Origin: an uncultured Siphonobacter sp.
GTDB taxonomy: Bacteria; Bacteroidota; Bacteroidia; Cytophagales; Spirosomataceae
Length of the DNA: 64,000 nt
Assembly: GCA_913775095.1 (NCBI GenBank)
Contig: CAJYIW010000002.1
Span: 62,001-126,000 of the forward strand
Direction: 5' to 3'
Shown: positions 614-61,945 of the stretch, one piece after another
Position numbering within the stretch: position 1 is the first letter of the stretch
How the letters are laid out: each line of letters starts with the position of its first letter
Made by a program: the position numbers and the translations under genes
The notes under the pieces: model-generated
Told to the model about the DNA's origin: nothing
Database searches by the model: none
Seen by the model: the letters and a program-made list of their open reading frames with translations, nothing else

Positions 614-660
614 TCAGAACAACTGGAACGAACCCCTGAGGTTCTGATTAGAAAAGGTTG

Positions 661-694
661 AAACAGCGGCTTCTCTGGAGCCGCTGTTTTTTTT
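661..694 (+). terminator. Intrinsic terminator after the first lipoprotein gene
   Basis: The hairpin AACAGCGGCT / AGCCGCTGTT has a 7-nt loop and runs straight into eight T residues. It separates the lipoprotein gene from the ubiE-porT pair. Confidence 0.85.
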
Positions 695-725
695 GATGGA
701 AGCGTATTCATTCCCGCTCAAAACG

Positions 726-733
726 TACCTTTG
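726..733 (+). promoter_or_regulatory. Putative -7 element for ubiE-porT
   Basis: TACCTTTG matches the Bacteroidota -7 consensus TAnnTTTG and lies about 70 nt before the chosen start, downstream of a terminator. I see no clear TTG at the -33 position, so this is half a promoter by sequence. Confidence 0.4.
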
Positions 734-804
734 TCGAACTTTCTTATCGAATAGATCGTATAGTTTAGGTACCGAAGCCTGTGATTATCAGGCTCTATAA
801 AATA

Positions 805-1536
805 TTGACAGACGTGGTCTTACCTTATAAAGAAGAACAGGATAGCAGTAAAAAAGAGCAGGTTGCGAAAATGTTTGATAACATTTCGCACCGTTATGAC
901 TTCCTGAACCATTTCCTGAGCATGGGGATTGATATCCTCTGGCGGAAAAAAGCCATCAGCCTGCTCAAGCCCGAAAAGCCTCAGACGATTCTGGATATAG
1001 CCACCGGCACGGGTGATTTTGCCCTGGAAGCCTTAAGTCTGAAACCTAAGAAAATTGTCGGCGTAGACATTTCGGAAGGCATGCTGGCTCAGGGTCGCGA
1101 GAAAATCAAAAAGATGGGACTTGAAGGAATCATTGAGTTACAGAAGGGGGATTCAGAAAAGCTTCCGTTCTCGGACAATTCCTTTGATGCTGTGATCGTT
1201 TCTTTCGGAGTACGGAATTTCGAAAATCTCGAAAAGGGCTTAACGGATATGAATCGCGTGCTCAAACCGGGCGGTACCTGCGTAGTGCTGGAGTTTTCGA
1301 AACCCCGCGGCGTTATCTTTAAACCCCTGTATAATTTTTATTCAAACCGTATTCTGCCGTTGATTGGCTCCTTTTTTTCCAAGGATAATTCGGCTTATAC
1401 GTATTTACCCGAATCGGTTCAGGCTTTTCCGGATGGCGATGATTTTCTGGCCGTTTATCAGAAGTCTGGATTCAAACAGACCCGGGCGATTCCATTAACC
1501 TTCGGCATCAGTTCCATTTATATTGGCAAGAAATAG
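805..1536 (+). CDS. ubiE: Demethylmenaquinone methyltransferase (UbiE/MenG)
   Basis: This is a SAM-dependent C-methyltransferase that converts demethylmenaquinone to menaquinone in the last step of respiratory quinone synthesis. The SAM site is the glycine-rich LDIATGTGDF segment in the first third. The family signatures KMFDNISHRYDFLNH near the N-terminus and VSFGVRNFENLEKGL near residue 150 are present. The start is uncertain: GTG 781, TTG 805 and GTG 814 are all in frame. I chose TTG 805 because MTDVVLPYKE resembles the usual short N-terminus of Bacteroidota homologues. There is no ubiquinone pathway in this phylum, so the role is in menaquinone. porT follows 6 nt downstream. Confidence 0.9.
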   Translation: MTDVVLPYKEEQDSSKKEQVAKMFDNISHRYDFLNHFLSMGIDILWRKKAISLLKPEKPQTILDIATGTGDFALEALSLKPKKIVGVDISEGMLAQGREKIKKMGLEGIIELQKGDSEKLPFSDNSFDAVIVSFGVRNFENLEKGLTDMNRVLKPGGTCVVLEFSKPRGVIFKPLYNFYSNRILPLIGSFFSKDNSAYTYLPESVQAFPDGDDFLAVYQKSGFKQTRAIPLTFGISSIYIGKK

Positions 1537-1542
1537 TAAGGT

Positions 1543-2349
1543 ATGAAGCGTAAGCTGCGAGCGAATGAAATTTCAAGGGTAACGGCAGTAGGATCCTTAG
1601 TTGCTGGTTTTAGACAGGCAGTACCCCGGACCCGAAATCTGTCCGTCTGGATCACCCTTCTGTTGAGTAGTGGTGGTCTTCACCAAACGTTCGCTCAGAA
1701 TACGATTTACAAGCGGAAGCACCTGGAATTTTACGATGACAAGAAAGTGCACTATGGCTTCTTTTTTGGGGTGCCCAATACGCGTTTTCAAATCAAACAC
1801 AGCGACGCTTATACGACTTCGCCCGTTCAGGATACGGTTCGTTCGATGAATACGCCTAATTCCATTGGTTTTCGAATGGGCTTTCTGATGAATGTGTACA
1901 TGAGCCCCCGGCTGGACTTTCGCTTTTCTCCCCTGACGCTTTCCATTTACAGTCGTCCGGTTGATTATACCTTTACCGGCGGAAGCGAGCAGCGACTCAT
2001 TCGGGAATCTACCTGGCTGGAATTTCCCTTCATGCTGAAATATAAATCCGTTCGTCGGGGAAATACCCGAATGTACGCCGTCGCCGGACTCAGGGCGGGC
2101 CTCGAAGCGAACGTCAGAAGGCGGCAAAACGCCAATCGGGGTAACGGACAGATGTCTACCCGTTCAGCGGATCTGGCGGTCGAATACGGGGTGGGGCTGG
2201 AGCGTTTTTTCGAATATTTCAAATTCACCCCGGAATTGCATTTTTCTCACGGCATCGCTAACATGATTCAACCCAACAACAGCATTTACAACGCAGGCAT
2301 CAGTCGAATGACCACGCATACGGTTACCTTGTATCTGATGTTTGAATAG
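1543..2349 (+). CDS. porT: PorT-like outer-membrane protein of gliding / type IX secretion
   Basis: A 268-residue PorT/SprT-type protein. After an unusually long basic N-region (about 33 residues) comes a hydrophobic segment ending in FAQ, a plausible signal-peptidase site. The rest has the alternating pattern of an 8-stranded outer-membrane beta-barrel and ends in the aromatic strand TVTLYLMFE. PorT is needed for type IX secretion in Porphyromonas and for gliding in relatives, probably at the outer membrane. The 6-nt gap after ubiE matches the ubiE-porT linkage seen in other Bacteroidota, which supports the name more than any single motif does. It ends at a long palindromic terminator facing ftsZ. 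Confidence 0.75.
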   Translation: MKRKLRANEISRVTAVGSLVAGFRQAVPRTRNLSVWITLLLSSGGLHQTFAQNTIYKRKHLEFYDDKKVHYGFFFGVPNTRFQIKHSDAYTTSPVQDTVRSMNTPNSIGFRMGFLMNVYMSPRLDFRFSPLTLSIYSRPVDYTFTGGSEQRLIRESTWLEFPFMLKYKSVRRGNTRMYAVAGLRAGLEANVRRRQNANRGNGQMSTRSADLAVEYGVGLERFFEYFKFTPELHFSHGIANMIQPNNSIYNAGISRMTTHTVTLYLMFE

Positions 2350-2355
2350 AACGAT

Positions 2356-2409
2356 TAACGCATAAAAAAATCCCGGCAGAAGACTCTGCCGGGATTTTTT
2401 TATGCGTTA
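2356..2409. terminator. Bidirectional terminator, 25-bp perfect palindrome
   Basis: Two perfect 25-nt arms (2356-2380 and 2385-2409) flank the loop AGAC. The GC core TCCCGGCAGA is flanked by seven A and seven T, so both strands show a hairpin plus U-tract. It serves the convergent porT (plus) and ftsZ (minus) genes. The pairing extends past the U-tract into ACGCAT/ATGCGT, which is more than a minimal terminator needs. Confidence 0.9.
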
Positions 2410-2413
2410 TTTC

Positions 2414-3898
2414 TTAATCATTCAGATTGTAGTGATTAACTTTTTCACCTCTCAGAATAACCGTTAAGTCCGCTAAAGGAATGTTTTGACGGATGTAAGC
2501 CGGGGTTTCCAGATCGGTTTCCCAGCCCTGATCGGGATGATCCAGCTTGCCAATGAATTCCTGAATCATACGGGCGTTTCCGGTAGAAGTATCCTCTTCC
2601 CGCCAGATTTCCTTTTCCAGCGATTTTACGACATCTTCTTCCGCCGGGACGGATGCAGGAGCTTCGAAAAGGATTTCCGTTTCCTCCGTTTCTTCAGACG
2701 TGTTTTCCAGAGAAGAAGCTGCCGAAGTAACGGAAGGCGTAAAGGCCGCCTGAGGCGTAGAATCCTGAAGGTAACTGCCGTATCCATACGAAGTATTGGA
2801 AGCCGCTGGTTTGGAAGTACTACCCGAACCGTTTCCCGTACCACTCGGGCGGGCGGGAGCAGACTGTTGAATCAGGGGCTCGTCCACGGGACGCTGATAC
2901 ACGGAATTACCGGGTAAATCAAAACCCGCAGCAATGATGGTGAAACGCATGGCCTTACCCAGGCTGTCATCAGGGATAGGGCTGATTTTCAGTAATCGGG
3001 CTTTCCCACCAATTTTATCTTCAATGTATTTCGTAATGGCTTTCTGCTCCATCATACGCATCGGGTTATCCTTGCTGTATGAAATGGTAATCAGGATGCG
3101 TTTCGCACCTTTGATGTCACGATTATCGAGTAACGGAGAACTTAAGGCTTCTTCGACGCAGGTAACGGCCCGATCTTCTCCTTCGGCACTGTACAGACCA
3201 ATTACGGCTTGTCCGGCCCCTTTGAGGATCGTTTTCACGTCGTTCATATCGGAGTTGATCTTACCGGACTTGGTAACGATCTCGGAGATACAGCGGGCTG
3301 CGTTGGCCAGGACGTCATCAGCTTTCGCATAGGCGTCATCAACGGTCATGTCGGGATACAGTTCCAGTAGTTTCTCGTTAAGAATTACCACCACTGTATC
3401 GCAGTATTTCTGCAACTCCCGAATGCCTTCGCGGGCCTGTTCAATTTTATCTTCTCCTTCGTCGTCGAAAGGAGCCGTGACGATGGCTACCGTCAGAATG
3501 TTAAGATCATTGGCAATGCGGGCAATAACCGGAGCGGCCCCCGTACCCGTGCCTCCACCCATACCGGCCGTGATGAACAACATCTCGGTGTTATCTTCCA
3601 GTACTTTACGGATTTCTGCTTCGCTTTCTTCAGCCGCTAAACGACCCTGAGCGGCGTCCATACCCGCCCCAATTCCTTTTTGGTTAACGGATTGATTACC
3701 CAGCTGAATTTTATAATCAATAGGACTTTCGTCGAGTGATTGTCGATCCGTGTTACAAACAATGAAGTCTACGTCTTCAATGTTCTGGTTAAACATGTGA
3801 CGCACTGCATTACAGCCACCACCTCCTACACCAAATACCTTGATATACGAGCGAAAATGTTTAACGGAGCTAAAAGAATAATTATGGTCAAGAAGCAT
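2414..3898 (-). CDS. ftsZ: Cell division GTPase FtsZ
   Basis: The tubulin-like GTPase that polymerises into the cytokinetic ring. 494 residues, longer than the roughly 380 of E. coli because of a Ser/Thr/Pro/Gly-rich linker (about residues 345-455). The nucleotide-binding GVGGGGCNAV lies at residues 23-32 and the tubulin signature GMGGGTGTG near 112-120. The C-terminal conserved peptide is recognisable as ETPAYIRQN (about 464-472; compare DIPAFLRKQ in E. coli), but about 22 more residues follow it. It is transcribed after ftsA, yet a terminator sits just after the ftsA stop, so ftsZ probably also has its own promoter in the 160-nt gap. Confidence 0.98.
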   Translation of the reverse strand: MLLDHNYSFSSVKHFRSYIKVFGVGGGGCNAVRHMFNQNIEDVDFIVCNTDRQSLDESPIDYKIQLGNQSVNQKGIGAGMDAAQGRLAAEESEAEIRKVLEDNTEMLFITAGMGGGTGTGAAPVIARIANDLNILTVAIVTAPFDDEGEDKIEQAREGIRELQKYCDTVVVILNEKLLELYPDMTVDDAYAKADDVLANAARCISEIVTKSGKINSDMNDVKTILKGAGQAVIGLYSAEGEDRAVTCVEEALSSPLLDNRDIKGAKRILITISYSKDNPMRMMEQKAITKYIEDKIGGKARLLKISPIPDDSLGKAMRFTIIAAGFDLPGNSVYQRPVDEPLIQQSAPARPSGTGNGSGSTSKPAASNTSYGYGSYLQDSTPQAAFTPSVTSAASSLENTSEETEETEILFEAPASVPAEEDVVKSLEKEIWREEDTSTGNARMIQEFIGKLDHPDQGWETDLETPAYIRQNIPLADLTVILRGEKVNHYNLND

Positions 3899-4017
3899 AC
3901 TATTAAGGTTGGTTACGGAGGATCGAGTAAGGCGGTACTCAATTACGTAATGAGTTAGTCAGCGTAAAACCAGGGTAAAATAAATATAAGCTTATTTCCT
4001 AAGTAAGTCTAGGTGGG

Positions 4018-4058
4018 GTAAAAGAGAAACTCAAACGGACCAGGCCGTTTGAGTTTTT
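4018..4058 (-). terminator. Intrinsic terminator between ftsA and ftsZ
   Basis: An 11-bp stem (4028-4038 with 4045-4055, AACTCAAACGG and its complement) lies three nucleotides beyond the ftsA stop. On the minus strand it is followed by TTCTCTTTT. It would end or attenuate the ftsA transcript before ftsZ. Confidence 0.7.
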
Positions 4059-5600
4059 TTATACAGTTTTAGGTTCCCAGCCGTCAGGTCGCTGGCCTCC
4101 TCTTGATTCAAATTCATCCCGGAAAATGGCTTTATACCAGGAGTTCAGATCCATGCGTAAACGCCACCACTTCCACTCCTGCTCGGTTTCCGGCTGTTCC
4201 GGTTCTTTGGCTGGTTCAGGAGGTTTCACGGGCTCGGGAGCCTGGGGCGTGGGTGGATTGGAATAATTTCCATTGGAATATCCACCGTTGTTGCCACTAT
4301 TGGGAGACTGAGGACTATGATGCTGACTCGTCGAATACGTATGGGGTACGTGCTGAACAGGTGGCTGAACAGGCGTTGGTACCGAAACCAGCGATTCGTA
4401 CAACTCATCCCGGGGATCGAGCGAACGGAAGCCCAGACGCACCAGACCCAGGGCAGTAGCGTAGGAAAGGTTATTGGTCGTTTCGGGTTTCTGTTTGTTG
4501 AAACCCTGATTCGGACGGCCTACCTGTACGTGCATGCCCGTAACGGAGCGGAATACATCCTGGATGCTATCCAGACGGGCACCGCCCCCGGTTAACACAA
4601 TACCCGTTTTAATCTTACGGTCGTAGCCTGCGTGGCGAACCACTGCGGCCACAAACGTGGCAATATCTTTGACGCGGGCCTCAATGATGACGGCTACGTT
4701 TTTGAGCGATACATTTTTCGGAGGAAGGCTTTCCAGTACGTTAGGCACGGCAACTACCTCGTTAATCCGAACTTCTTTGTGCGTGGCCGTTCCAAAACGC
4801 AGCTTGAGGTCTTCAGCTACATTTTCTGATACGTCACAACCAATCTCAATATCTTTGGTGATCGACTTTCCGCCCACGGGGAAAGAAGCGACGTAACGAA
4901 CCAGTTCTCCCTGTACGATGACCACGTCCGTTTTACCGGCTCCGATATCCACCAGAATAGCTCCGTGCTCTTTTTCTTCATCGCTCAAAACGGCCATGGT
5001 AGAGGCCAGCGAAGATAGATAGACGTGCTTGGGAGGAACGTGTAAACCCGCCCAGTCCAGACTTTTCAGCAGGGTACTCAGGGGCTTCAGGGGCATGGTA
5101 ATCACCTGGAACTTACCCCGCAAGTGAGTGCCGGTAACGCCTACAATGTGGTAATGTTCTTCCGAGTCGCCGTCGACACTGTATTCCTGCGGCAGTACGT
5201 GGAGAATGGCCGAACCATCGATTTTGGTACGGCCTACACTGCCCAGTAAACGTTGCAGATCATCGTGACGAACTTCATCTCCCTCTGACACGTAATCACG
5301 GGAGATGTCACTAATTTTAGGTATACAGCTAACCTGATGGCTCGCTACACTGATGAAATACTGATTCGGGGTAACTCCAGCCTGTTCAATGGCTTCGGCC
5401 AAAGCTTTTTTAATGAATTTGCTAACGAAATCCGGGTTGAGGATAGCTCCTTTGGTAACAAGATTCTTGAACTTCTTGTCCTTAAATTCAACCCGGCTCA
5501 CGCCACGCACGTCAAGTTTGTCGTCGTGATCTTTTTGGCCGATCACCACACATACCTTGGTCGTTCCTACGTCAATCCCGCAAACGATCTTTTTCTCCAT
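4059..5600 (-). CDS. ftsA: Cell division protein FtsA
   Basis: The actin-like ATPase that tethers FtsZ to the membrane and recruits later division proteins. The N-terminal phosphate-binding loop GIDVGTTKV and the later ATPase motifs DIGAGKTDV and GIVLTGGGARL are visible. At 513 residues it is about 90 longer than E. coli FtsA. The extra part is a Pro/Gln/Asn/Ser-rich linker (about residues 405-475) followed by a basic-aromatic tail containing EWKWWRLRM, which may carry the membrane-binding helix. It follows ftsQ after a 261-nt gap and precedes ftsZ. Confidence 0.97.
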   Translation of the reverse strand: MEKKIVCGIDVGTTKVCVVIGQKDHDDKLDVRGVSRVEFKDKKFKNLVTKGAILNPDFVSKFIKKALAEAIEQAGVTPNQYFISVASHQVSCIPKISDISRDYVSEGDEVRHDDLQRLLGSVGRTKIDGSAILHVLPQEYSVDGDSEEHYHIVGVTGTHLRGKFQVITMPLKPLSTLLKSLDWAGLHVPPKHVYLSSLASTMAVLSDEEKEHGAILVDIGAGKTDVVIVQGELVRYVASFPVGGKSITKDIEIGCDVSENVAEDLKLRFGTATHKEVRINEVVAVPNVLESLPPKNVSLKNVAVIIEARVKDIATFVAAVVRHAGYDRKIKTGIVLTGGGARLDSIQDVFRSVTGMHVQVGRPNQGFNKQKPETTNNLSYATALGLVRLGFRSLDPRDELYESLVSVPTPVQPPVQHVPHTYSTSQHHSPQSPNSGNNGGYSNGNYSNPPTPQAPEPVKPPEPAKEPEQPETEQEWKWWRLRMDLNSWYKAIFRDEFESRGGQRPDGWEPKTV

Positions 5601-5861
5601 ACGGCACAGCTTTAGGGTTGATTAGTAATACTTTTATCAACTCAGCTTATCTATTATTGGTATCCATAAAGGACCTAAATCCGATTATGGTTTAAAGTAA
5701 TAAAAAAAATCGGGCATTGACTAACACGATATTTTATCCCCTTCTTCGGAAATGTTAATTTGCAGGGGAAATCTCCCTATTTTGCACTTCAGAAGCGGAA
5801 ATAAACGGTACCAATGTAGTCAAAAAATAAATACTGTTTTATTTCATTGCCTATACAAAAC

Positions 5862-6677
5862 TTACGGCATAGCTACCAGCTTTAGCGAATCACTGGTGGC
5901 TCGGGTACAGACTACCTGATTTTTGTATTTGACGCTTACTTTCGAGAAACTATTCCAACCGCGTAAAGGCAAAATATTTCGGAAAAAGAGACTCATTTTC
6001 TGAAACTTAGGATCTCTGGCGTAAGCTGAGCCAAACTCAATGGGCAGATCACCTACCTGCGGCCAAATTGTTATCTCACCCTGTTTATCAATTTCCAGCC
6101 ACCCAATTTGTGCTTTCCATAAGGAATCCTGACCAATGGCTTGAATCATATGAAAAAGAGCGGTATCCTGACGGGCTCTTAAATGATTCTTCCGGTCAAA
6201 ATAAGGGCCGGATAGCAACAGAACCCTGGCGGTGTAATGGTCAGAAAGGGGCATAAACTGGCCTTCTTCATTCAGGTAGCGATCCAGACCATTGTCGGGC
6301 AGTTCAGGCTGAACCAAACGGGCAATGGGACGATGGGTCTCTACGTGCACTTCCAGCCAACCCCTCAAATTCCGGGCAATCTGGCACTCCTTAACCAGAG
6401 GACTGGACTTGACCCGACTTTCCAGAAAATCTAAATTGATTTGGTCAAAAGACTTTCCTTCCAGGGGCTTTCTGCCAGATTCTGATAATAAATTACGTAT
6501 ATCCTGCTGAGACAATAACGGCACTTGCTGCTGGCCTTCATTGAGCACAATACTGACTTTTTCGCAGGATTGGAAAGCGTACCATTTTTCGGCAAAACCC
6601 ACCAAAAGACCTATAATTAAGATCCCCAACACGGCCTTAACCCAGTTTCTTAACCGAAAGATAGAAAACTTCTCCAA
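5862..6677 (-). CDS. ftsQ: Cell division protein FtsQ/DivIB
   Basis: A single-pass inner-membrane protein of the divisome. One hydrophobic segment (about residues 13-30, VKAVLGILIIGLLVGFA) follows a short cytoplasmic N-terminus, then a POTRA-like domain and an extracytoplasmic beta domain; 271 residues in all. Sequence similarity in this family is low, so the call rests on topology and on its position between murC and ftsA, the standard place in the division and cell-wall cluster. The 261-nt gap before ftsA is larger than usual for this operon. Confidence 0.9.
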   Translation of the reverse strand: MEKFSIFRLRNWVKAVLGILIIGLLVGFAEKWYAFQSCEKVSIVLNEGQQQVPLLSQQDIRNLLSESGRKPLEGKSFDQINLDFLESRVKSSPLVKECQIARNLRGWLEVHVETHRPIARLVQPELPDNGLDRYLNEEGQFMPLSDHYTARVLLLSGPYFDRKNHLRARQDTALFHMIQAIGQDSLWKAQIGWLEIDKQGEITIWPQVGDLPIEFGSAYARDPKFQKMSLFFRNILPLRGWNSFSKVSVKYKNQVVCTRATSDSLKLVAMP

Positions 6678-6770
6678 GTCCTTAGGGCCTGATTTTCAAA
6701 AATTATCGTATGGTAGTGAGAGAGTTACCCTTAGAAGAGGCTTTCTCATTACCTTTTTCAATGAGCTCAC

Positions 6771-8177
6771 TTATTTTGTACTGACCCGACTCTCCAGATA
6801 ACCGCGAATGGGATCGATCAACATGTCAATGTCACCTGCTCCAATCGTTACCAACACTTCAGGAAGCTCCTGCTGAATGAGGGCCAGAACCTCGTCTTTG
6901 TGACATTGAATTTTTTCTGAACTGGTGATCTTGTCAAAGACAATGTCCGCCGTAACTCCCGGAATAGGTAATTCCCGGGCCGGATAAATGTCCAGTAAAA
7001 TGACCCGATCCGCCAGAGATAATGATTCCGCAAATCCGTCCTGAAAATCCCGGGTTCGGGTAAACAGGTGGGGCTGAAAAATCGCCGTTATTTTGCGTCC
7101 CGGGTACAGAGCTTTTACTGACTTCAGAAACGCCTCAACCTCCGTCGGATGATGGGCGTAATCATCAATATAAGTAACGTCAGGTTGCTGTACGTGGTAT
7201 TGAAATCTTCGCTTTACTCCCCGGTATGAATTAATACCAGCCCGAATTTCCTCCGGAGATAGTCCGGTTTTCAAACAAACCGCGAAGGCAGCTACGGCAT
7301 TTTCGGCATTATGAAAGCCGGGGACCAGCAGGGCAATGTCTTCACAAATACCACCGGGGTAAACGATTGAAAATCTGAATCGGTTATCGGCAATCCGACA
7401 GTCAGTGACGTGATATTCTCCGTCCTCAAAACTGTATGTACGAATCTGAGCCCGGGTCTGATTGCTCAGGGGTAAACCATTTCTTAAAAAGAGCGTCCCA
7501 TCGGGCTTGATCTGACTGACAAAATCACCGAATGATTTCAGTACTTCATCACCCGAACCATAGATATCCAGGTGATCAGCGTCGGTTGAGGTAACAATCG
7601 CCAGATCGGGATGGAGAGTCAGAAAGCTACGGTCAAACTCATCGGCTTCTACTACGCACAAAACCTCCTGCAGATTCTCGGAGGGCTCATTGAGTAAAAA
7701 ATTCGTCTGGTAATTCTGAGTAATCCCACCCAGGAAAGCCGCTACATTTCGACCGCTGTGTTTTAATATATGAGCGACCATCGAAGAGGTGGTCGTTTTA
7801 CCGTGCGTGCCCGCTACGGCAATCAAAAACATTTCTTCCGTTAATAAACCCAGTACCTGAGATCGCTTGAGAATGGTAAAGCCATTATTCTGAAAAAAGG
7901 CCCATTGGGCGTGATCTTTCGGAATAGCCGGGGTTAAAACAACCAGCGTTTCTTCCGGGTTCTGATAAGTTTCAGCGATTTGCGAGACTTCATCCGTAAA
8001 GTGAACATCAATGCCCTCATCCTGTAAGGCGGCCGTAAGTTTGGTAGGTGTTTTATCATAACCCGCTACTTCATAGCCGTTGACGTGGAACCACCGGGCA
8101 ATGGCACTCATCCCAATTCCTCCAATGCCGAGGAAGTAAATAGATTGATAAGATCGAATGGGCTTGGACAGAACCAT
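6771..8177 (-). CDS. murC: UDP-N-acetylmuramate--L-alanine ligase MurC
   Basis: A cytoplasmic Mur ligase that adds L-Ala to UDP-MurNAc using ATP, the first amino acid of the peptidoglycan stem peptide. The N-terminal Rossmann part has FLGIGGIGMSAIA (residues 15-27), the ATP loop is GTHGKTTT (123-130), and the central DDYAHHPTEV is the Mur-ligase hinge. At 468 residues it has standard length. It lies 112 nt after murG and 93 nt before ftsQ. Confidence 0.98.
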   Translation of the reverse strand: MVLSKPIRSYQSIYFLGIGGIGMSAIARWFHVNGYEVAGYDKTPTKLTAALQDEGIDVHFTDEVSQIAETYQNPEETLVVLTPAIPKDHAQWAFFQNNGFTILKRSQVLGLLTEEMFLIAVAGTHGKTTTSSMVAHILKHSGRNVAAFLGGITQNYQTNFLLNEPSENLQEVLCVVEADEFDRSFLTLHPDLAIVTSTDADHLDIYGSGDEVLKSFGDFVSQIKPDGTLFLRNGLPLSNQTRAQIRTYSFEDGEYHVTDCRIADNRFRFSIVYPGGICEDIALLVPGFHNAENAVAAFAVCLKTGLSPEEIRAGINSYRGVKRRFQYHVQQPDVTYIDDYAHHPTEVEAFLKSVKALYPGRKITAIFQPHLFTRTRDFQDGFAESLSLADRVILLDIYPARELPIPGVTADIVFDKITSSEKIQCHKDEVLALIQQELPEVLVTIGAGDIDMLIDPIRGYLESRVSTK

Positions 8178-8289
8178 GTAGTGAACTGAGTAATCTTAAT
8201 GAAAGACTATGAGATTTTATTTTTGTTTACACAATTTTAAAAAAAAACTCAAAGTGCTGACAGACAGGTTAAAAATGATTAAAGTGCTC

Positions 8290-9390
8290 TTAACGAATCA
8301 ATTGTAAAACCTCGGATGCAATTTGCCGGGCGGCCTGAGGTTTAGCCAGTGTCTTGATTCGTTCCGCCATCCGCTGAAGCTTCTCCGGATTTTTGAATAA
8401 TTCCAGCGTTGTAGGAATCAACGTATGCCGGGCTTCTGCGTCTTTTACTAATAAACCTGCCTCTTCCCGAACCAAAGCCAGGGCATTTTGAGTCTGATGA
8501 TCTTCAGCGGCGGTAGGTAAGGGAACAAAAATGGCCGGCTTCCCGACCAGACATAATTCGGAGATCGAAAGAGCCCCGGCCCGGGAGATCACTACGCTGG
8601 AGGCGGCGTAGGCGTAGGGCATCTGGTTAATGAAATCAGAAACCCAGATGCGATTCGACCCAAGGGCTTCCACCCGCTGCCGGGCTTTATCAATATACAG
8701 CTTTCCCGTTTGCCAGATAATCTGGTAACCTGCGGCCAGCAGTTGTTCAAGACCGTTATCAATGCTTTCATTGATGGTACGAGCTCCCTGACTACCTCCA
8801 ATAATTAATAAAGTAGGTATTTCGGGAGAAAGGCCTTTGAAGTATTCCCACACGCTGGGGTCATTTGAGTAGATACTACCAATGTCACTCCGTACGGGAT
8901 TGCCCGTCATTACCAGTTTTTCAGCCGGAAAAAAGGATTGCATGGAGGGATACGCTACGCAGATTTTACTGGCTTTCCTGGCAAGAAATTTATTAGTAAT
9001 TCCGGCATACGAGTTTTGTTCCTGGATGAGGTAGGGGACTCCATTCATCCCCGCTGCCAATAACAAAGGTCCACTGGCATATCCTCCTACGCCTACGGCT
9101 GCATCAGGCTTAAAGTCCCTGATAATCTGGCGTGCAGCCAGAAGACTTTTGGCCAGTTTCAGTGGAAATTCAATATTAGCAATGGGATTCGAACGATTGA
9201 TTCCCGCAATATCCAGTCCTGCAATCCGGTAGCCCGCCTGAGGTACTTTCTCCATTTCCATGCGTCCGTTGGCACCTACAAAGAGAATTTCCGTATGAGG
9301 ATCGTACTCCTTCAGGGCGTTGGCAATAGCAATGGCAGGGAAAATATGACCTCCCGTTCCACCTCCGCTGATGATAATGCGTTTAGACAC
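8290..9390 (-). CDS. murG: Undecaprenyl-PP-MurNAc-pentapeptide GlcNAc transferase MurG
   Basis: A membrane-associated glycosyltransferase that adds GlcNAc to lipid I to make lipid II. The start ISGGGTGGHIFPAIAIA carries the first G-loop. GVGGYASGP and IGGSQGARTINE match the second G-loop and the UDP-GlcNAc-binding half, and SRAGALSISEL is the usual C-domain signature. 366 residues is typical. It is flanked by ftsW and murC in the conserved order. Confidence 0.98.
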   Translation of the reverse strand: MSKRIIISGGGTGGHIFPAIAIANALKEYDPHTEILFVGANGRMEMEKVPQAGYRIAGLDIAGINRSNPIANIEFPLKLAKSLLAARQIIRDFKPDAAVGVGGYASGPLLLAAGMNGVPYLIQEQNSYAGITNKFLARKASKICVAYPSMQSFFPAEKLVMTGNPVRSDIGSIYSNDPSVWEYFKGLSPEIPTLLIIGGSQGARTINESIDNGLEQLLAAGYQIIWQTGKLYIDKARQRVEALGSNRIWVSDFINQMPYAYAASSVVISRAGALSISELCLVGKPAIFVPLPTAAEDHQTQNALALVREEAGLLVKDAEARHTLIPTTLELFKNPEKLQRMAERIKTLAKPQAARQIASEVLQLIR

Positions 9391-10865: not shown

Positions 10866-11666
10866 TTAGCCTTTAATGAAAACCTGCTCCTGATGATAAA
10901 TTTTGGTATAGGGCTTAATGCTATGCGTTAACCAGACATTACCACCCACAATGCTGTGATGACCAATGACGGTTTCACCGCCCAGAATGGTAGCACCGGA
11001 ATAAATAACGACATCATTCTCGACCGTTGGATGGCGTTTCTGGGAAGCCAGTTCCTTACTAACGCTTAATGCTCCCAGCGTAACTCCCTGATACAGTTTT
11101 ACATTCCGGCCAATGACGGTTGTTTCACCAATGACGATACCCGTACCGTGGTCGATGAACAGATATTCGTCAATTTCTGCTGCGGGGTGAATGTCAATGC
11201 CCGTGCGGGAGTGAGCAAATTCCGTTAATACTCTGGGTAATAATGGAATATTCAAATCATAAAAGGTATGAGCAATCCGGTAGAAAGCCACGGCATAAAA
11301 GCCGGGATACGCCCGGACAATCTCGTATTCGCTGGTGGCGGCGGGGTCGCCGGCCAGGATCGCCGAAACGTCTGTGCGAAGCAGATGATAGATTTCCGGA
11401 ATTTTCTCCACAAACTGAGCGGATACATGGGCAGGCGTATCGGGTAAATGGCTGTTCATGGACTGAAGCATATCCGTCAGGTCCTTTTCAAGCCGAATGA
11501 ATGCTTCTCCCAGTTTGTCAACCGAATGGTAATGAATTCGGGTTTGTTCGGGAAAAAGCAGAAGAATTAGTCGGGTGACCAGCCGGGCTACGGCTGAAGT
11601 GGGTGGAAAAGAATCCGTATTGGAATGAATCTTATGCAAAGTCTCCAGAAAGTCGCGGGGTAACAT
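10866..11666 (-). CDS. cysE: Serine O-acetyltransferase (CysE/EpsC type)
   Basis: Makes O-acetyl-L-serine from L-serine and acetyl-CoA, the carbon skeleton for cysteine. The C-terminal half is a left-handed beta-helix of hexapeptide repeats. It contains the catalytic region GIDIHPAAEI and FIDHGTGIVIGETTVIG, which is characteristic of serine acetyltransferases. The N-terminal half (about 120 residues) is helical. At 266 residues it resembles the longer Bacteroidota/EpsC form. It stands alone between an unrelated beta-propeller gene and ftsW. Confidence 0.93.
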   Translation of the reverse strand: MLPRDFLETLHKIHSNTDSFPPTSAVARLVTRLILLLFPEQTRIHYHSVDKLGEAFIRLEKDLTDMLQSMNSHLPDTPAHVSAQFVEKIPEIYHLLRTDVSAILAGDPAATSEYEIVRAYPGFYAVAFYRIAHTFYDLNIPLLPRVLTEFAHSRTGIDIHPAAEIDEYLFIDHGTGIVIGETTVIGRNVKLYQGVTLGALSVSKELASQKRHPTVENDVVIYSGATILGGETVIGHHSIVGGNVWLTHSIKPYTKIYHQEQVFIKG

Positions 11667-11747
11667 GTAAAGCTCGTTTATATCAGTGTAGCAATCCGTA
11701 CCTATTAAAATCTACTATTGTATGACTAAAACGTAACAATAGGTTCC

Positions 11748-12593
11748 TTAGCGTCGGGTTATTTTATAGATTTTGCCTTTTTCGTTGGTAATCAGCAAGT
11801 CATGATTAGTAATGAAGACCAATGCTTCTACCTGCCCACGTCCCACTTTCAGACACGAAAGTGGATGTTTAAAATTGATTTCTTTTCCCTGAATCGCAAA
11901 GAAAAAAACTTTTCCGTACGTAAGCACTGCGAAAGTTTGCCGGTCGGGACTGATGTCGGCGGCGGTAATCATTCCATTCAGACGAATGCTGTCTTTAAGA
12001 ACAGCCGTATAGTCACCAGCTTTGGCCGGCAGTGTGTATAACCTGGCCACAGGCTTTCCCCAGTTTTTGGAAAACAGGTAGAGGCTGTCATTAGCGTAGA
12101 AAAAAGCCTCACAATCAAAATTTTTTCCAGCCCTGGGTGGTGGGAAATCCAGTTGATCCGGGTAATGGTATGTGATTTTTTCAGCCTCTTGGGACGGATG
12201 AGTTTTAGAGACTTTATAAATGCATAAATCCTTACGCGTGTTGGTATTATTCCCCGTATCACCGATGTAAATATTTCCCTGCGAGTCGCGGCTCAACTCT
12301 TCCCAGTCTTTATTCTGAAGTTCCGGTAATGCCCAGGTGGAAAGCAGGTTACCCACGGAGTCAATTTCGTAAAGTTCGGGCTTGCCGCCTGAATCGTTGT
12401 GAGTCCAGAAAGTAGGTTTTCCCGAAGCGGTTGCTAACCCTGAGTTCTCGTTGGCAACCTGCGGCATGGTACCCACTCGCTCAATACGATAGTGGCGTTT
12501 GGCCCGTGAAAAGCCCTGCCGATGGATGTCAGGCTGACAGGAGCAGAGGTTTGTTTTTAAGCCGAAAAGAAAGAATAACAATTTTGTAAGCAT
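11748..12593 (-). CDS. Exported beta-propeller-like protein of unknown function
   Basis: A 281-residue protein with an N-terminal hydrophobic segment (LLFFLFGL) followed by cysteines (LCSCQ) that could serve as a lipid-acceptor site. The body has repeated blade-like segments: NSGLATAS...FWTHNDSGG, WEELSRDSQGNIYIGDTGNN, NFDCEAFFYANDSLYLFSKNW and QVEALVFITNHDLLITNEKGKIYKI. These look like a propeller of the NHL/SdiA-regulated type. No catalytic motif is obvious. It diverges from the AI-2E-family gene with a 40-nt gap. Confidence 0.75.
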   Translation of the reverse strand: MLTKLLFFLFGLKTNLCSCQPDIHRQGFSRAKRHYRIERVGTMPQVANENSGLATASGKPTFWTHNDSGGKPELYEIDSVGNLLSTWALPELQNKDWEELSRDSQGNIYIGDTGNNTNTRKDLCIYKVSKTHPSQEAEKITYHYPDQLDFPPPRAGKNFDCEAFFYANDSLYLFSKNWGKPVARLYTLPAKAGDYTAVLKDSIRLNGMITAADISPDRQTFAVLTYGKVFFFAIQGKEINFKHPLSCLKVGRGQVEALVFITNHDLLITNEKGKIYKITRR

Positions 12594-12633
12594 ACTTAAC
12601 GAGAGTTCACACCTTTTACCCTACGAATGTACT

Positions 12634-13830
12634 ATGAATTCAGAACCTACCTTCCCTTATCCGGTTCGATTAGCGGCGAGTCTGATTTGTGTATTGTTAA
12701 TTATCTACGGATTATACGCTCTTCAGGGGATCGTCACGTTGTTACTGTATTCGCTTCTGATTGCGATGTTGCTTTTCCCCCTATGCCGTAAACTGGAGAA
12801 ATGGAAGCTGCCCCGGGTGGCAGCCATCTTCGTTTGTCTGGTAGTGCTGATTGGCGTTCTGGCGGGTATTGTCTGGCTGGTTTCCATGCAAATGGCCAAT
12901 TTTACGGATGATTTTCCCAAGTTTCAGGAAAAAATGAATGCAGTGATTGACCGGGCTCAACGCATGGCAGACGATCAGTTTGGGCTGGACAAGACGCGGC
13001 AGAAGAATGAAATCAAACGGATCACGAACGATGTGCTGCATAACAGCGGCAGTTACATTGGTACTTTTCTTTCATCCACGACCTCTACATTAGCCGATTT
13101 GTCGCTGGTGCCCATTTTCGTATTTTTTATTCTTTTATACCGCGATTTCTTTCGAAGCTTTCTCTATAAACTCTTTTCCAAAACCCGACGCCATCGGCTG
13201 GACGATGTGCTGGGAAAAATCTATGTGGTAGTGCAGGGATACCTGACGGGTCTCGTGCTGGTAATTGCCATCGTTGCCGGTTTGAACACCGCCGGGTTAT
13301 TGATTCTGGGGATTGATTATGCCTGGTTTTTCGGAACGCTGGCGGCGGTGCTGCTACTGATTCCCTACATCGGCATATTGGTAGGCTCATTATTACCAAC
13401 GATTTATGCTCTGGTGACGAAAGACTCCCCCATGTATGCCGTAGGGGTAATTGGCGTCTTCAGTTTTGTGCAAATTCTGGAAGGTAACTTCATTACTCCC
13501 AATGTCGTCGGTTCGAAAGTAAGCGTTAACCCACTGGCGGCCATGGTTGTACTGATTATGGGTGGCCAGTTATGGGGAATTTCAGGCCTGGTACTGGCTC
13601 TTCCCGTTACTGCTATTATGAAAGTGATCTGTGACAATGTAGATGGTTTGAAGCCTTATGGCTTTTTACTGGGCGACCCGGAATACAGCCGGGAACTCAA
13701 GCCAACGACTCGTCTGCCCAGGCTGGATACGTTGCGAAAGCGGAAAGATAAAGTAGAAAATGCCTTATCTAATGAGGAGCAACCTCAAAACCAGTCCGGC
13801 GTCAGAAGTTCAGAGGATCAAAATTTTTGA
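12634..13830 (+). CDS. AI-2E family transporter (PerM/YhhT type)
   Basis: A polytopic inner-membrane protein of the AI-2E exporter family (PF01594), 398 residues with about eight hydrophobic segments. The typical layout is visible: two or three N-terminal helices, a soluble helical segment (about residues 90-150), a block with LVLVIAIVAGLNTAGLLILG, and the signature PYIGILVGSLLPTIYAL followed by GNFITPNVVGSKVSVNPLA. Members have been linked to autoinducer-2 export or Na+/H+ exchange, and the substrate here cannot be told. Its 3' end overlaps the convergent Lon-domain gene by 29 nt. Confidence 0.9.
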   Translation: MNSEPTFPYPVRLAASLICVLLIIYGLYALQGIVTLLLYSLLIAMLLFPLCRKLEKWKLPRVAAIFVCLVVLIGVLAGIVWLVSMQMANFTDDFPKFQEKMNAVIDRAQRMADDQFGLDKTRQKNEIKRITNDVLHNSGSYIGTFLSSTTSTLADLSLVPIFVFFILLYRDFFRSFLYKLFSKTRRHRLDDVLGKIYVVVQGYLTGLVLVIAIVAGLNTAGLLILGIDYAWFFGTLAAVLLLIPYIGILVGSLLPTIYALVTKDSPMYAVGVIGVFSFVQILEGNFITPNVVGSKVSVNPLAAMVVLIMGGQLWGISGLVLALPVTAIMKVICDNVDGLKPYGFLLGDPEYSRELKPTTRLPRLDTLRKRKDKVENALSNEEQPQNQSGVRSSEDQNF

Positions 13831-14425
13831 AATGACCATTGAGCCTGATGCGTTCTTTGGTGCGTTCCAGTTCGTTGATTACGGGCATGATCCGGTTAAG
13901 GTGACGAAGGATGAACTCCTGCCGGTCGGTTTCGGACCGTAGCTGAATAAGCTGATACTCCTCGGCAATGGACAACCCGATTTTATGACCTATCTGAAAA
14001 GAAAAATGGAAGGGAATCTCTTCAAATTCAAAGGAAAGCTGTAAATGGTGGTAGAGCTCCCGCAGACGTTCCAACAGACCAGGAATGATAAGCTGGCCAG
14101 GCGTTTCCGGAACATATTCTACCTCGCCTCCCGCATAGAGTTTCTCTGAAACGGGACTCTGGAAGGTGAGTAGTTTAAAAACCTGCATGCCCCGCGTTTT
14201 AATATCCATACGGCCATCCTCGTAAGCCTGAACGATCTGAATGATCTCAATAGAAGTGCCATACTGCATGACCTGGTTAGGCAGGTAAACAGGAATACCG
14301 AAAGGCTGATGGTTCTGAATACATTCAGTGATAAGCTGAACATAGCGGGGTTCAAAAATGTGCAGATTCAGGTTTTCCCCTGGAAAAGCGACCAGGTTTA
14401 ACGGAAACAGAGGCAGAAAAGGCAT
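13802..14425 (-). CDS. LON peptidase substrate-binding domain protein
   Basis: 207 residues with only the N-terminal (LAN) domain of Lon proteases: LPLFPLNLVAFPGENLNLHIFEPRY at the start, followed by a helical C-terminal part. There is no ATPase or Ser-Lys peptidase domain, so this is a stand-alone substrate-binding type protein with unknown partner. The 3' end overlaps the convergent transporter gene (13802-13830). Confidence 0.93.
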   Translation of the reverse strand: MPFLPLFPLNLVAFPGENLNLHIFEPRYVQLITECIQNHQPFGIPVYLPNQVMQYGTSIEIIQIVQAYEDGRMDIKTRGMQVFKLLTFQSPVSEKLYAGGEVEYVPETPGQLIIPGLLERLRELYHHLQLSFEFEEIPFHFSFQIGHKIGLSIAEEYQLIQLRSETDRQEFILRHLNRIMPVINELERTKERIRLNGHFKNFDPLNF

Positions 14426-14466
14426 AACAGATCCGGGTTAAATAAGCTTTCTGCAAAGGAAACTTT

Positions 14467-14931
14467 CTAGGGATTAGGCTCTACCGTAAGCCCAACACTC
14501 TGAATTTCAGGCAGCGGATCCTGACGCATGTATTGTTCCACCTTAAATGTGTACGTACCCGGGCTGGGGAATTTCTGATTTTTGATGGCCAGAAATTTAT
14601 GATCGTAAATGTCTCCCAGTCCATTGCCCGTCGGTTTTCCCGTAGTAGGGTTCGCCAGAATTAGCTCATCCAGATTCCGCCCGATGGTCTTACCCCCCGG
14701 CCCTATCAGCGTTCGGGTTACGTACAGGTTATAGTACGGATAGGACTTGGTATTACGAAGGTTATAATACAGGTTATACGTTTTCGTAATATCCTTGATT
14801 TCAAAGCTAAAACTCGGAACCGTTTTAACCGGCCATTTGGCGTCCTGCAAATCGACATTCTCCTTGAAAAGGGTAGTCGTTTCGCAGGAAGTCAGCGTGA
14901 CAAGGGTGAAAAGGAATAGCAGTAGTCGCAT
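14467..14931 (-). CDS. gldH: Gliding motility lipoprotein GldH
   Basis: A 154-residue lipoprotein: the short signal MRLLLFLFTLVTLTSC puts the lipid-acceptor Cys at residue 16. The body matches GldH in motifs such as YNLYYNLRNTKSYPYYNLYV and the GDIYDHKFL segment. GldH is one of the lipoproteins needed for gliding and type IX secretion in Flavobacterium. It lies just after ricT (42-nt gap with a hairpin), a linkage common in Bacteroidota. With porT at 1.5 kb it suggests a gliding or type IX-secreting lineage. Confidence 0.9.
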   Translation of the reverse strand: MRLLLFLFTLVTLTSCETTTLFKENVDLQDAKWPVKTVPSFSFEIKDITKTYNLYYNLRNTKSYPYYNLYVTRTLIGPGGKTIGRNLDELILANPTTGKPTGNGLGDIYDHKFLAIKNQKFPSPGTYTFKVEQYMRQDPLPEIQSVGLTVEPNP

Positions 14932-20622: not shown

Positions 20623-20927
20623 ATACTTTTCAAATGGGATTGATTAAACATCAGTAAAAGATCATCACGAAAGACAGCCCATCTCGTCTGAATGATGAGT
20701 GTGTAAAGTTAAATGTAGAATCAGTGAAATGACTAGAATCAAAGTCAAATAGATTTTTTTAAAAAAAATATGAGCTGTTAAGGGCTGACTTTCAGAGATT
20801 TGTTTCTGTAAGGGGTTGGGGACGAGATAAAAAATATCACTTTTTTTTAGCCAACTCTTGACAAACCCCGTTTTTCGAGCGTACATTTGCATTCCCAAAC
20901 GACGGGTAATACGGCAAATAAAATCAA
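20623..20927. other. Intergenic region upstream of the tRNA genes
   Basis: AT-rich sequence between the divergent DUF4293 gene and the tRNA genes. The right end holds the tRNA promoter (20858-20889). Elsewhere I see only poly-T runs and no ORF of note. Confidence 0.6.
20858..20889 (+). promoter_or_regulatory. Promoter of the tRNA-Gly/tRNA-Leu unit
   Basis: TTG (20858-20860), a 21-nt spacer, then TACATTTG (20882-20889), followed by C. This matches the Bacteroidota promoter TTG-N19-21-TAnnTTTG. The -33 region also reads TTGACA. The predicted start is about 7 nt downstream, some 30 nt before the first tRNA. Confidence 0.75.
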
Positions 20928-21000
20928 GCGAAAGTAGCTCAGCTGGTAGAGCGCGACCTTGCCAAGGTCGAGGTCGCGGGTTCGAACCCCGTCTTTCGCT
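20928..21000 (+). tRNA. tRNA-Gly (anticodon GCC)
   Basis: A complete cloverleaf: acceptor stem GCGAAAG / CTTTCGC, D stem GCTC/GAGC, anticodon stem CGACC/GGTCG with loop TTGCCAA (anticodon GCC at 20961-20963), T-loop TTCGAAC, discriminator T. No CCA follows in the DNA. Confidence 0.97.
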
Positions 21001-27942: not shown

Positions 27943-28006
27943 AGGGTAATAGTGGTATTTATTAGATTTTAAAGGAATTTAATTATTGAATTATGGCAAG
28001 AATTTT

Positions 28007-28036
28007 TTGTTATATTTAATAATTTATGTAACTTTG
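28007..28036 (+). promoter_or_regulatory. Consensus Bacteroidota promoter of the microprotein unit
   Basis: TTG (28007-28009), exactly 19 nt, then TAACTTTG (28029-28036). This is an ideal TTG-N19-TAnnTTTG promoter, preceded by a T run. Predicted transcription starts near 28043, about 120 nt before the small ORF at 28162. Confidence 0.75.
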
Positions 28037-59030: not shown

Positions 59031-60260
59031 ATGCAGAAAATTAAAGTAGCGAACCCAGTCGTTGAACTCGATGGGGACGAAATGACCCGAATCATCTGGA
59101 AGTTTATCAAGGAAAAGCTGATTCTTCCCTATGTTGATGTCGATATTAAATACTACGATTTAGGAATCGAATACCGTGACGAGACGAACGATCAGGTGAC
59201 GGTAGATGCCGCTAACGCCATCAAAGAATACGGTGTTGGTATTAAATGTGCTACCATTACTCCAGATGAAGCTCGGGTGAAAGAATTCAACCTGAAGCAA
59301 ATGTGGCGTTCTCCAAACGGAACGATTCGTAACATCCTGGATGGTACGGTATTCCGCGAGCCTATCGTAATGCAGAACGTTCCTCGTCTGGTTTCTACCT
59401 GGACTTCTCCCATCATCGTAGGCCGTCACGCTTTTGGTGATCAATACCGGGCAACGGATTTCGTAGTACCTGGCAAAGGTAAGCTGACGATGAAATTCGA
59501 AGGCGAAGACGGAACCGTACAGGAATACGATGTATTCAACTTCCCCGGTGCTGGTGTGGCCATGGGTATGTATAACCTGGACGAGTCGATCGCTGGTTTT
59601 GCTCGTTCCTGTTTCCAGGTAGGTCTGCAAAAAGGCTGGCCTGTGTACCTGTCTACGAAAAACACGATCCTGAAAAAATACGATGGTCGTTTCAAAGACG
59701 TATTCCAGGCAGTTTTTGATGCTGAATTCGCTGAGAAATTCAAAGAAGCAGGTATCACCTACGAACACCGTCTGATTGACGACATGGTAGCGGCAGCTCT
59801 GAAATGGAGTGGTAGCTACGTTTGGGCTTGTAAAAACTACGACGGTGACGTACAGTCAGATACCGTAGCTCAGGGCTTTGGTTCTTTAGGTCTGATGACT
59901 TCCGTACTGTTAACGCCCGATGGTTCCGTAATGGAAGCGGAAGCGGCTCACGGTACGGTAACGCGTCACTACCGCGAACACCAGAAAGGTAACCGTACTT
60001 CTACGAACCCAATCGCTTCGATCTACGCCTGGACGCGTGGTCTGGCCTTCCGTGGTAAACTGGATGGTAACGAAGAACTGATCCGTTTTGCAACGGCACT
60101 GGAAGAAGTTTGCGTTGAAACCGTTGAAGCGGGTAAAATGACTAAAGATTTAGCCATTACCATCCACGGTAACAAAGTAAATCACGGTGAGCATTACTTA
60201 TACACCGAAGAGTTCCTGGACGAGCTGGACAAAGGCTTACAGGTAAAACTCGCGAAATAA
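59031..60260 (+). CDS. icd: NADP-dependent isocitrate dehydrogenase, eukaryote-like type
   Basis: Oxidises isocitrate to 2-oxoglutarate, making NADPH. 409 residues from ATG 59031; the frame is open from 58989, but the extra residues overlap the -7 element. The sequence is of the homodimeric type II kind found in eukaryotes and some bacteria, not E. coli Icd: [40 protein letters not shown], the substrate-site Ser in [18 protein letters not shown], and [19 protein letters not shown]. Codon use favours CGT, GGT and AAC, as expected for a strongly expressed enzyme. Confidence 0.96.
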
Positions 60261-60277
60261 TTACGAGTCAGTTTGCT

Positions 60278-60315
60278 AAAAAGGCACTTATCCGTCAGGG
60301 TAAGTGCCTTTTTTA
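60278..60315. terminator. Bidirectional terminator between icd and the acidic microprotein gene
   Basis: AAAAAGGCACTTA / TAAGTGCCTTTTT (13 bp, 10-nt loop) with A and T runs outside. Confidence 0.85.
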
Positions 60316-60332
60316 TGGGAGTAGGCGTAAGA

Positions 60333-60494
60333 TTACATATCGTCCAGTTCTTCTTCTTCGAAGTCATCGGTATCTTCATCTTCATCATCCTGCTCCGCTG
60401 TAAACTCGTCCATTTCTTCGGCAGGATCCATGGTATCTCCGCTTTCATCCATGGGTTCATCAAAAAATTCGAAATCGTCCTCGGGTATGCTCAT
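60333..60494 (-). CDS. Hyperacidic 53-residue protein
   Basis: ATG 60494 to TAA 60333. The protein begins MSIPEDDFEFFDEPMDE and ends DDFEEEELDDM. 29 of the 53 residues are Asp or Glu, and there is no Lys, Arg or His. It has no signal or membrane segment and is probably disordered. It is too short for many ORF callers, and overlapping longer frames hide it. Support for a real gene: its own promoter 25 nt upstream (60519-60550, TTG-N21-TACATTTG) and a terminator just after the stop. A nucleic-acid mimic, a chaperone-like tail or a metal/cation buffer are guesses only. Confidence 0.7.
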   Translation of the reverse strand: MSIPEDDFEFFDEPMDESGDTMDPAEEMDEFTAEQDDEDEDTDDFEEEELDDM

Positions 60495-60518
60495 AAGTTT
60501 TAGGTGTTAGATTACACT

Positions 60519-60550
60519 CAAATGTAAACGTAACTATTTCATCGAATCAA
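60519..60550 (-). promoter_or_regulatory. Promoter of the acidic microprotein gene
   Basis: On the minus strand: TTG (60550-60548), a 21-nt spacer, TACATTTG (60526-60519). The spacing and -7 sequence are the same as those of the tRNA promoter at 20858-20889. The predicted start lies about 18 nt before the ATG. Confidence 0.7.
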
Positions 60551-60721
60551 GACCTGAAATGCCTTTTATTGTTTTGTGAAATTTGACAAAGGGATACTTA
60601 ACGAAAGAGAAGTCCCTGAAAGAGGAAGTAAATTAGGTCCTGGCTTCGCATAATCTTGCCTCAAGCCTGTCCCCACGCCTATTTTTTGCTTTACTTTGGC
60701 AGCAAATCCTATTACTGTCTT

Positions 60722-61945
60722 ATGATCAATTATGTACTGTTTGACGGCCCGGAAGTTCGTCCCCATTTATTGCCGCTGGTTTTCACCCGGCCCATGGCTG
60801 AATTAAGGGTAGGCATTCGGACCATTACCGAAAAATGGACAGACTGGCTCGGCGTACAGCCCACGCATTACACACAGTCGTATTTACAGGAGAAGTATCC
60901 TTACCGAAAAGGTTCGGATACCATTTATATCCACGGGGGACTTTGTCCGAGTGAGCGGCTCATTCGCTCCCTGGAAGAGCTGGAACCCGGAGAAGCGTTG
61001 CTTCAGGGCCCTATTTTACTGGCCGTTCGGGGTAAACACCTGCCCCTGGAGAGCCTGGTTCATGACAATACGGCTTTTCATAAGCAATACTACTGGGATA
61101 AAGTAACGGTTGTGCAACGCCTGCCCGATCTGGTGGCTTACAATGGGGAACAAATCTCAGCGGATTTCGAACGCATTACTCACGGCCGCACCAGTCAGCC
61201 CATCACCGATCGGTTTACGGCTTATTACAACGAATCACAGATTTTTATTGAAGAAGGAGTCCAGCTACGCTCTGCCATTCTGAACGCCGAAAACGGACCC
61301 ATTTATCTGGGAAAAGACGTTCAGGTGCAGGATGGCGTGATTATTCAGGGCCCCTTTGCTGCTCTGGAAGGAGCCGTGATTAATCTGGGTGGTAAAATGC
61401 GGAAAAGTACTACCATTGGCCCTCACTGTAAAGTAGGCGGGGAGATCAGCATGAGTATTCTTATGGGTTATTCCAATAAAGGGCACGACGGGTTTCTGGG
61501 TAACTCTTACCTGGCCGAATGGTGCAACCTGGGAGCCAATACCAATAACTCCAACCTTAAAAACGATTACGGTAACGTAAAACTCTACGACTACACCACG
61601 AAACAACTCGAAGATACCGGGCGGCAATTTGTGGGTTTATTCATGGGAGATTATTCCAAGGCGGGCATTTCTACCATGTTTAATACCGGAACCGTCATTG
61701 GGGTTAACGTGAACGTTTTTGGAGCAGGTTTTCCTCCCAAGCATATCCCTTCCTTTAGCTGGGGTGGAGCCGACACCGGTTTCGAGGCGTATCGTTTCAC
61801 AAAAGCGGTCGATGTTGCCCGGAATACGATGGACCGTCGGGGTAAACTCTTCACTGAAATTGAAGAGGACATCTGGAGGACGATTTACGCCCTGGAACAA
61901 ACGGAGTTCATTCACTATACCGACGACGAAGAGAGAGAGGGTTAA
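60722..61945 (+). CDS. GlmU-like sugar nucleotidyltransferase/acetyltransferase (Bacteroidota type)
   Basis: 407 residues from ATG 60722; the frame is open to 60656, but MINYVLFDGPEVRPHLLPL is the family start. The N-terminal part (LVFTRPMAELRVGIRTITEKW) is the diverged uridylyltransferase domain of the alternative bacterial GlmU family. The C-terminal half is a left-handed beta-helix of hexapeptide repeats (IYLGKDVQVQDGVIIQGP, GEISMSILMGYSNKGHDGFLG) that ends in the GVNVNVFGAGFPPKHIPSFSWGG type segment. It is thought to make UDP-GlcNAc for cell-wall synthesis. The convergent downstream gene overlaps its last 4 nt. Confidence 0.9.
   Translation: MINYVLFDGPEVRPHLLPLVFTRPMAELRVGIRTITEKWTDWLGVQPTHYTQSYLQEKYPYRKGSDTIYIHGGLCPSERLIRSLEELEPGEALLQGPILLAVRGKHLPLESLVHDNTAFHKQYYWDKVTVVQRLPDLVAYNGEQISADFERITHGRTSQPITDRFTAYYNESQIFIEEGVQLRSAILNAENGPIYLGKDVQVQDGVIIQGPFAALEGAVINLGGKMRKSTTIGPHCKVGGEISMSILMGYSNKGHDGFLGNSYLAEWCNLGANTNNSNLKNDYGNVKLYDYTTKQLEDTGRQFVGLFMGDYSKAGISTMFNTGTVIGVNVNVFGAGFPPKHIPSFSWGGADTGFEAYRFTKAVDVARNTMDRRGKLFTEIEEDIWRTIYALEQTEFIHYTDDEEREG

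Follow-up and report, generated by a model that had tools for sequence, protein, structure and literature searches.

Does a 53-codon open reading frame (ORF) on the minus strand of the window, the 64,000-nucleotide stretch of Siphonobacter DNA analyzed here, encode a genuine protein, and, if so, what might that protein do? The frame lies with icd downstream and glmU upstream:

59031 to 60260, plus strand: icd, NADP-dependent isocitrate dehydrogenase, convergent neighbor (NCBIfam NF006156, E 2.3e-225); the start is the ATG of the listed ORF, and family searches ran from 59007 in the same frame.

60333 to 60494, minus strand: gene for a hyperacidic small protein (53 codons and a stop), called from its composition, its conservation in all six genomes of the genus, dN/dS and the codon-position pattern.

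60722 to 61945, plus strand: GlmU-like UDP-GlcNAc diphosphorylase/acetyltransferase, divergent neighbor (TIGR03991, alt_bact_glmU, E 6e-121).

The protein encoded by minus strand positions 60494-60333 is MSIPEDDFEFFDEPMDESGDTMDPAEEMDEFTAEQDDEDEDTDDFEEEELDDM. It contains 15 Asp and 14 Glu, 29 acidic residues among 53, and no Lys, Arg or His, a composition that the earlier note had read correctly; five Phe are also present. The calculated pI is 4.05, and the calculated charge at pH 7 is about -29. Among the 283 ORFs of 40 to 150 amino acids in the window, this one is 55% Asp/Glu (D/E) and the other 282 reach at most 15%. As a chance control, 60 order-3 Markov windows gave a maximum of 26%; the controls used here, order-1 and order-3 Markov sequences, keep short-word composition and not gene structure. 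The acidic composition is far from chance. Two longer ORFs overlap the gene, one of 89 amino acids at 60194-60463 on the minus strand and one of 76 amino acids at 60273-60503 on the plus strand, in keeping with the suggestion that overlapping frames hide it.

Conservation was followed in a genus set of six genomes, the window's own (G000) included. An acidic ORF was found at the same place in all six. Five copies, the window's own among them, are full length at 92 to 100% amino acid identity to the window copy, with the other four at 92 to 96%. The sixth copy, from G001, is a 59-amino-acid ORF beside glmU with 42% identity to the window copy; it was missed by the single-sequence search and scored E 6e-20 with a profile that was built with this copy included. 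It retains DPAEE, EF, DFEEE and LDD (core DPAEE...DDFEEE), and its gaps relative to the window copy, all in frame, amount to two additional codons and a longer C terminus. D/E residues number 27 to 29 of 53 in the five close copies and 33 of 59 (56%) in the sixth; no copy has more than one Lys, Arg or His. The start codon is retained in every genome. The C-terminal end reads EELDDM in five copies and DEEEEE in G001. SSB-type tails are acidic and end in a hydrophobic Pro-Phe tip, and an SSB-type acidic C-terminal tip was rejected on the basis of these endings.

The substitutions point to selection on the protein. The five close copies form ten pairs. Three of these gave dN/dS values of 0.015, 0.033 and 0.029, a fourth had one synonymous change and no amino acid change, and dS was saturated in the remaining six. 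Between G000 and G004, differences at codon positions 1, 2 and 3 numbered 1, 2 and 19 (19/22 at the third position; binomial p 4e-7), and between G000 and G005 they numbered 1, 0 and 14 (14/15; p 2e-6). In the four other close species, the 140 nt upstream of the gene are 70 to 81% identical to the window, versus 86 to 91% for the coding sequence. Taken together, the low dN/dS, the third-position bias and the greater conservation of coding than of upstream sequence argue for a selected protein-coding gene. By these comparisons the acidic reading frame is under strong purifying selection, and the ORF is almost certainly a genuine gene. The earlier note had proposed a conserved small gene, and both the acidic pattern and the locus are indeed retained across the genus. 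It had also named two outcomes that would speak against one, the absence of the ORF from relatives and a dN/dS near 1; the ORF is present in six of six genomes, and dN/dS is 0.015 to 0.033.

Past glmU, a cell-wall precursor gene, lie a gene for an NAD-binding epimerase-like protein and one for succinyl-CoA ligase alpha. A toxin-antitoxin pair was rejected, since there is no adjacent co-directional toxin gene and the annotated neighbors, icd and glmU, are convergent and divergent, respectively. The acidic gene adjoins glmU in all six Siphonobacter genomes. The end of icd lies directly next to it in the five close genomes, as seen from an alignment of the last icd bases, whereas about 8 kb separate the two genes in G001, where both are on one contig. 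The expected synteny next to icd therefore held in five genomes and failed in the sixth. Because icd is separated in G001, its link is the looser one, and the acidic gene is bound more tightly to glmU than to icd.

Three further observations concern this neighborhood. Between icd and the acidic gene, G001 carries a 640-amino-acid ORF and SusC-like, SusD-like and glycosidase-like ORFs (C18:440000-449500, positions 550-8660 of that locus; the three likenesses were read by eye), and the five close genomes have none of this set at this place; the block looks like a polysaccharide-utilization insertion. Within the space separating glmU from the acidic gene, a 20-nt block at 60565-60584 (AAATTTCACAAAACAATAAA, minus strand) is constant, or differs by a single change, in five of the six genomes of the genus while its flanks vary; the block may be part of the promoter of the divergent glmU. 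In G003 (C30:63627-64409), the GlmU match stops at residue 261 with a stop within, and a second match was counted, so that glmU there is either broken or affected by an assembly error.

Two promoter elements precede the gene:

60519 to 60526, minus strand: -7 promoter box TACATTTG, with 24 nt between it and the ATG; TAnnTTTG in six of six genomes (consensus from PMC6847099 and PMC9723704).

60548 to 60550, minus strand: candidate -33 box TTG, 21 nt from the -7 box, a spacing shared by G000 and G005 only.

The arrangement TTG-N21-TACATTTG at 60550-60519 on the minus strand recurs identically at 20858, upstream of tRNA-Gly at 20928; the match to the tRNA promoter in spacing and -7 sequence that the earlier note had pointed out is thus exact. 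Across the genus, TAnnTTTG lies 24 to 34 nt before the ATG in all six genomes, at shifted positions. The box is TACATTTG in three genomes, TACGTTTG in two (G002 and G004) and TATCTTTG in one. Work on Flavobacterium johnsoniae narrowed the -7 consensus to TAHHTTTG and found a weak -33 motif (PMC6847099; PMC9723704). Four of the six boxes fit this refined form, and the G of TACGTTTG departs from it in G002 and G004. The TTG of the -33 box stands at N21 in two genomes and at spacings of 13, 23 or 24 in three, and it is absent in G001. Of the proposed consensus promoter, then, the -7 box stands in all six genomes, whereas the TTG at N21 is confined to two of them and two boxes fall outside TAHHTTTG.

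Within the window, the bare pattern TTG-N19-21-TANNTTTG is not enriched: 3 sites were observed where 2.6 were expected, and 47 of 100 order-1 Markov sequences held three or more. Since the pattern is no rarer than chance, it is conservation, and not the match itself, that supports the promoter. The built-in sigma-70 promoter scan reported nothing in 60150-60800. Besides the tRNA and acidic-gene sites, the third TTG-N19-21-TANNTTTG site is at 28006-28036 on the plus strand and is the only one with the full TTTG, at N17-20.

Adenines at -3, -6 and -12/-13 favor translation in F. johnsoniae (PMC6847099). The window copy has A at -6 and -13 and C at -3; because of this C, exceptional translation initiation of the acidic gene is not predicted.

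Downstream of the stop lies one further element:

60278 to 60313, both strands: bidirectional terminator-like hairpin common to the acidic gene and icd, folding on either strand.

The hairpin lies 19 nt past the stop of the acidic gene and has T tracts on both strands. Its predicted fold is stable in either direction (minus strand, -19.4 kcal/mol, z -5.7; plus strand, -23.9 kcal/mol, z -7.5), and in G001 a hairpin forms at the same place from a different stem sequence (-24.7, z -6.5). The built-in terminator scan reported nothing in 60150-60800, a silence that its stem rules and its maximum loop of 8 may explain. The putative terminator would serve icd too. A complete unit with its own terminator had been proposed; the hairpin after the stop was found, but it is common to the convergent icd.

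Relatives were then sought beyond the genus. A single-sequence search of 222 family genomes matched 8 at E<=10 (5 from the genus, the other 3 weak). Searched with a profile, this set gave 9 matching genomes at E<=1 (6 from the genus and 3 partial matches in open frames of 602 to 1013 amino acids). By both searches, no relative was found among the 216 other family genomes. In a sample of 390 order genomes, which overlaps the family set, the profile matched 12 at E<=1, of which 2 were Siphonobacter and 10 were weak, with best E values of 0.019 to 0.56 and partial matches; the best of these contained two internal stops. The translated loci of six of the ten weak genomes held no hyperacidic small protein, and the other four matches lay inside open frames of 288 to 932 amino acids (the inspection excluded a second match in G293). 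Among named genomes, three loci matched, all of them from Siphonobacter. Neither Pfam nor NCBIfam gave a match for the window protein, and neither Pfam nor PHROGs gave one for any of the six copies. Solved structures (PDB) returned one meaningless match, at E 3.6. Plasmids, phages and viral contigs gave no match, but these negatives are weak, since the low-complexity filter of BLAST-type searches may hide an acidic query; the same weakness applies to the BLAST confirmation step of the named-genome search.

The neighborhoods of glmU and icd in other bacteria were also read. At 42 glmU loci from 40 genomes of 23 other genera (flanks of about 0.5 to 3 kb), no ORF of 30 to 160 amino acids exceeded a D/E fraction of 0.24, and none exceeded 0.19 at 26 icd loci (flanks of about 1.5 kb). 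No report of the acidic gene was found in the literature on small acidic, disordered or DNA-mimic proteins, and, among the matches listed, no paper naming Siphonobacter concerned it by title. Homology searches fail with short sequences of biased composition, and a diverged relative may exist elsewhere. On the searches made, the acidic gene appears to be an orphan, known here only from Siphonobacter.

What might the protein do? AlphaFold2, run with the six sequences, gave a mean pLDDT of 63, a pTM of 0.15 and no DSSP elements; this fits a disordered protein, although with an alignment of six sequences of biased composition such a low-confidence model is weak evidence of disorder. Neither the family searches nor the model gave any sign of an enzyme or a folded domain. 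We tentatively favor, by analogy with known acidic proteins, the reading that this orphan protein is a disordered polyanion whose binding partner would be basic. The gene would be transcribed by the housekeeping sigma factor, and its product would be a soluble, cytosolic, intrinsically disordered polyanion whose few Phe, Leu and Met residues sit within runs of Asp and Glu. Less certainly, it might make fuzzy, electrostatic contacts with a partner of positive charge, either a protein that binds nucleic acid or some other basic protein, and might mask or buffer that partner, as prothymosin alpha or acidic protein tails do. It would probably be neither an enzyme nor a folded scaffold. One candidate basic partner is a protein matching the H1-like Hc1 family (Pfam), presumably lysine-rich, which was found in all six genus genomes. 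It is a lead only, because one of the 14 control genomes, a Bacteroides, has an Hc1 match as well. A bacterial prothymosin counterpart, that is, a disordered acidic chaperone or decoy stripping or buffering an H1-like nucleoid protein (Hc1), would be a long shot.

A different reading, possible though somewhat doubtful, is that the protein is a sequence-specific peptide ligand of one partner protein, perhaps a component of the transcription, replication or cell-envelope machinery. Its short acidic-hydrophobic motifs, DDFEFFDEP toward the N terminus and DDFEEEELDD toward the C terminus, would become folded when bound to that partner and would regulate it. The amino acid conservation in the five close species seems to exceed the needs of a bare polyanion, which may point to a particular binding motif. 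Identity to the window copy is higher for the acidic protein than for GlmU in G002 (94 versus 88%), G004 (94 versus 88 to 90%) and G005 (96 versus 94%), but the order is reversed in G003 (92 versus 96%, over the first 261 GlmU residues). Likewise, DPAEE and DFEEE are kept in the 42%-identical G001 copy, yet the N-terminal motif is absent there, and no known family or meaningful solved structure points to such a ligand. The reading is a serious rival nonetheless, since the strong amino acid conservation suggests that more than charge matters.

A polyanion buffering metals or polyamines, for example a calcium binder, is unlikely. It would make use of the 29 carboxylate side chains, and a loose D.D.D......E spacing occurs in three of the six sequences; the other three lack it, and an EF-hand loop (DxDxDG) with its Gly occurs in none. 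Extreme negative charge and small size are all that would recommend a folded DNA mimic or counter-defense protein, which we consider very improbable given the lack of a confident AlphaFold fold for the six sequences, the chromosomal synteny beside glmU in six of six genomes, and the lack of matches in PHROGs, phages, plasmids and viral contigs (the BLAST-type part of which is weak for the reason given above). T7 Ocr, a folded, small, acidic DNA mimic, shares small size and acidity with the Siphonobacter protein, but the latter has no confident predicted fold and no phage or viral match. Least credible of all is that the GA-rich icd-glmU gap is open by accident: GAN codons are stop-free, so that a GA-rich run is easily open, and two antisense frames are nearly free of stops as well (0 or 1 per genome in all six), as expected of frames lying opposite GAN codons, but a chance ORF was rejected on the codon-position bias (19/22 and 14/15 at the third position), the conservation in six genomes, and the conserved start, -7 box and in-frame gaps.

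The favored polyanion reading draws on known systems. Prothymosin is about half Asp/Glu, longer than 53 residues and nearly free of aromatics. Between prothymosin alpha and H1, high-affinity binding of a disordered acidic to a basic protein is established (PMC7661507). The acidic protein is also small, about half Asp/Glu and predicted to be disordered; however, prothymosin alpha is a eukaryotic H1 chaperone with no sequence relation shown, and the present protein has 53 residues, five of them Phe. The delta subunit of Bacillus RNA polymerase (RpoE) has a C-terminal tail that is likewise a disordered, acidic, Asp/Glu-rich stretch, but the acidic protein has no Pfam match and, at 53 residues, is too short for the folded N-terminal domain. 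The gene also resembles the orphan small genes that comparative genomics or ribosome profiling has turned up in bacteria, being short, seen in a single genus, under purifying selection and overlapped by longer ORFs, and it differs from them by its unusually extreme acidic composition. The family is new, an orphan of a kind already familiar. A small gene of extreme composition can face very strong selection at the amino acid level, and low-complexity filters and length cutoffs tend to skip such genes. The acidic gene adds one well-supported orphan gene whose function is still conjectural; if a partner is found, it would offer a simple, testable bacterial case of a dedicated disordered polyanion.

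The window's own genome was also searched for runs of six D/E codons, a search that misses hyperacidic ORFs lacking such a run. The frames around all 43 matches were read, and there was no second hyperacidic small protein among them. By eye, acidic stretches of response-regulator receiver-like proteins account for about 16 of the 43 matches (e.g., L066, L070, L076, L085-L093, L111 and L112). On contig C6 of this genome, two receiver-like proteins occur twice in mirror image with the same spacing, at 11184-14523 on the minus strand and 104498-107837 on the plus strand; this may reflect either a genuine inverted duplication or an artifact of assembly.
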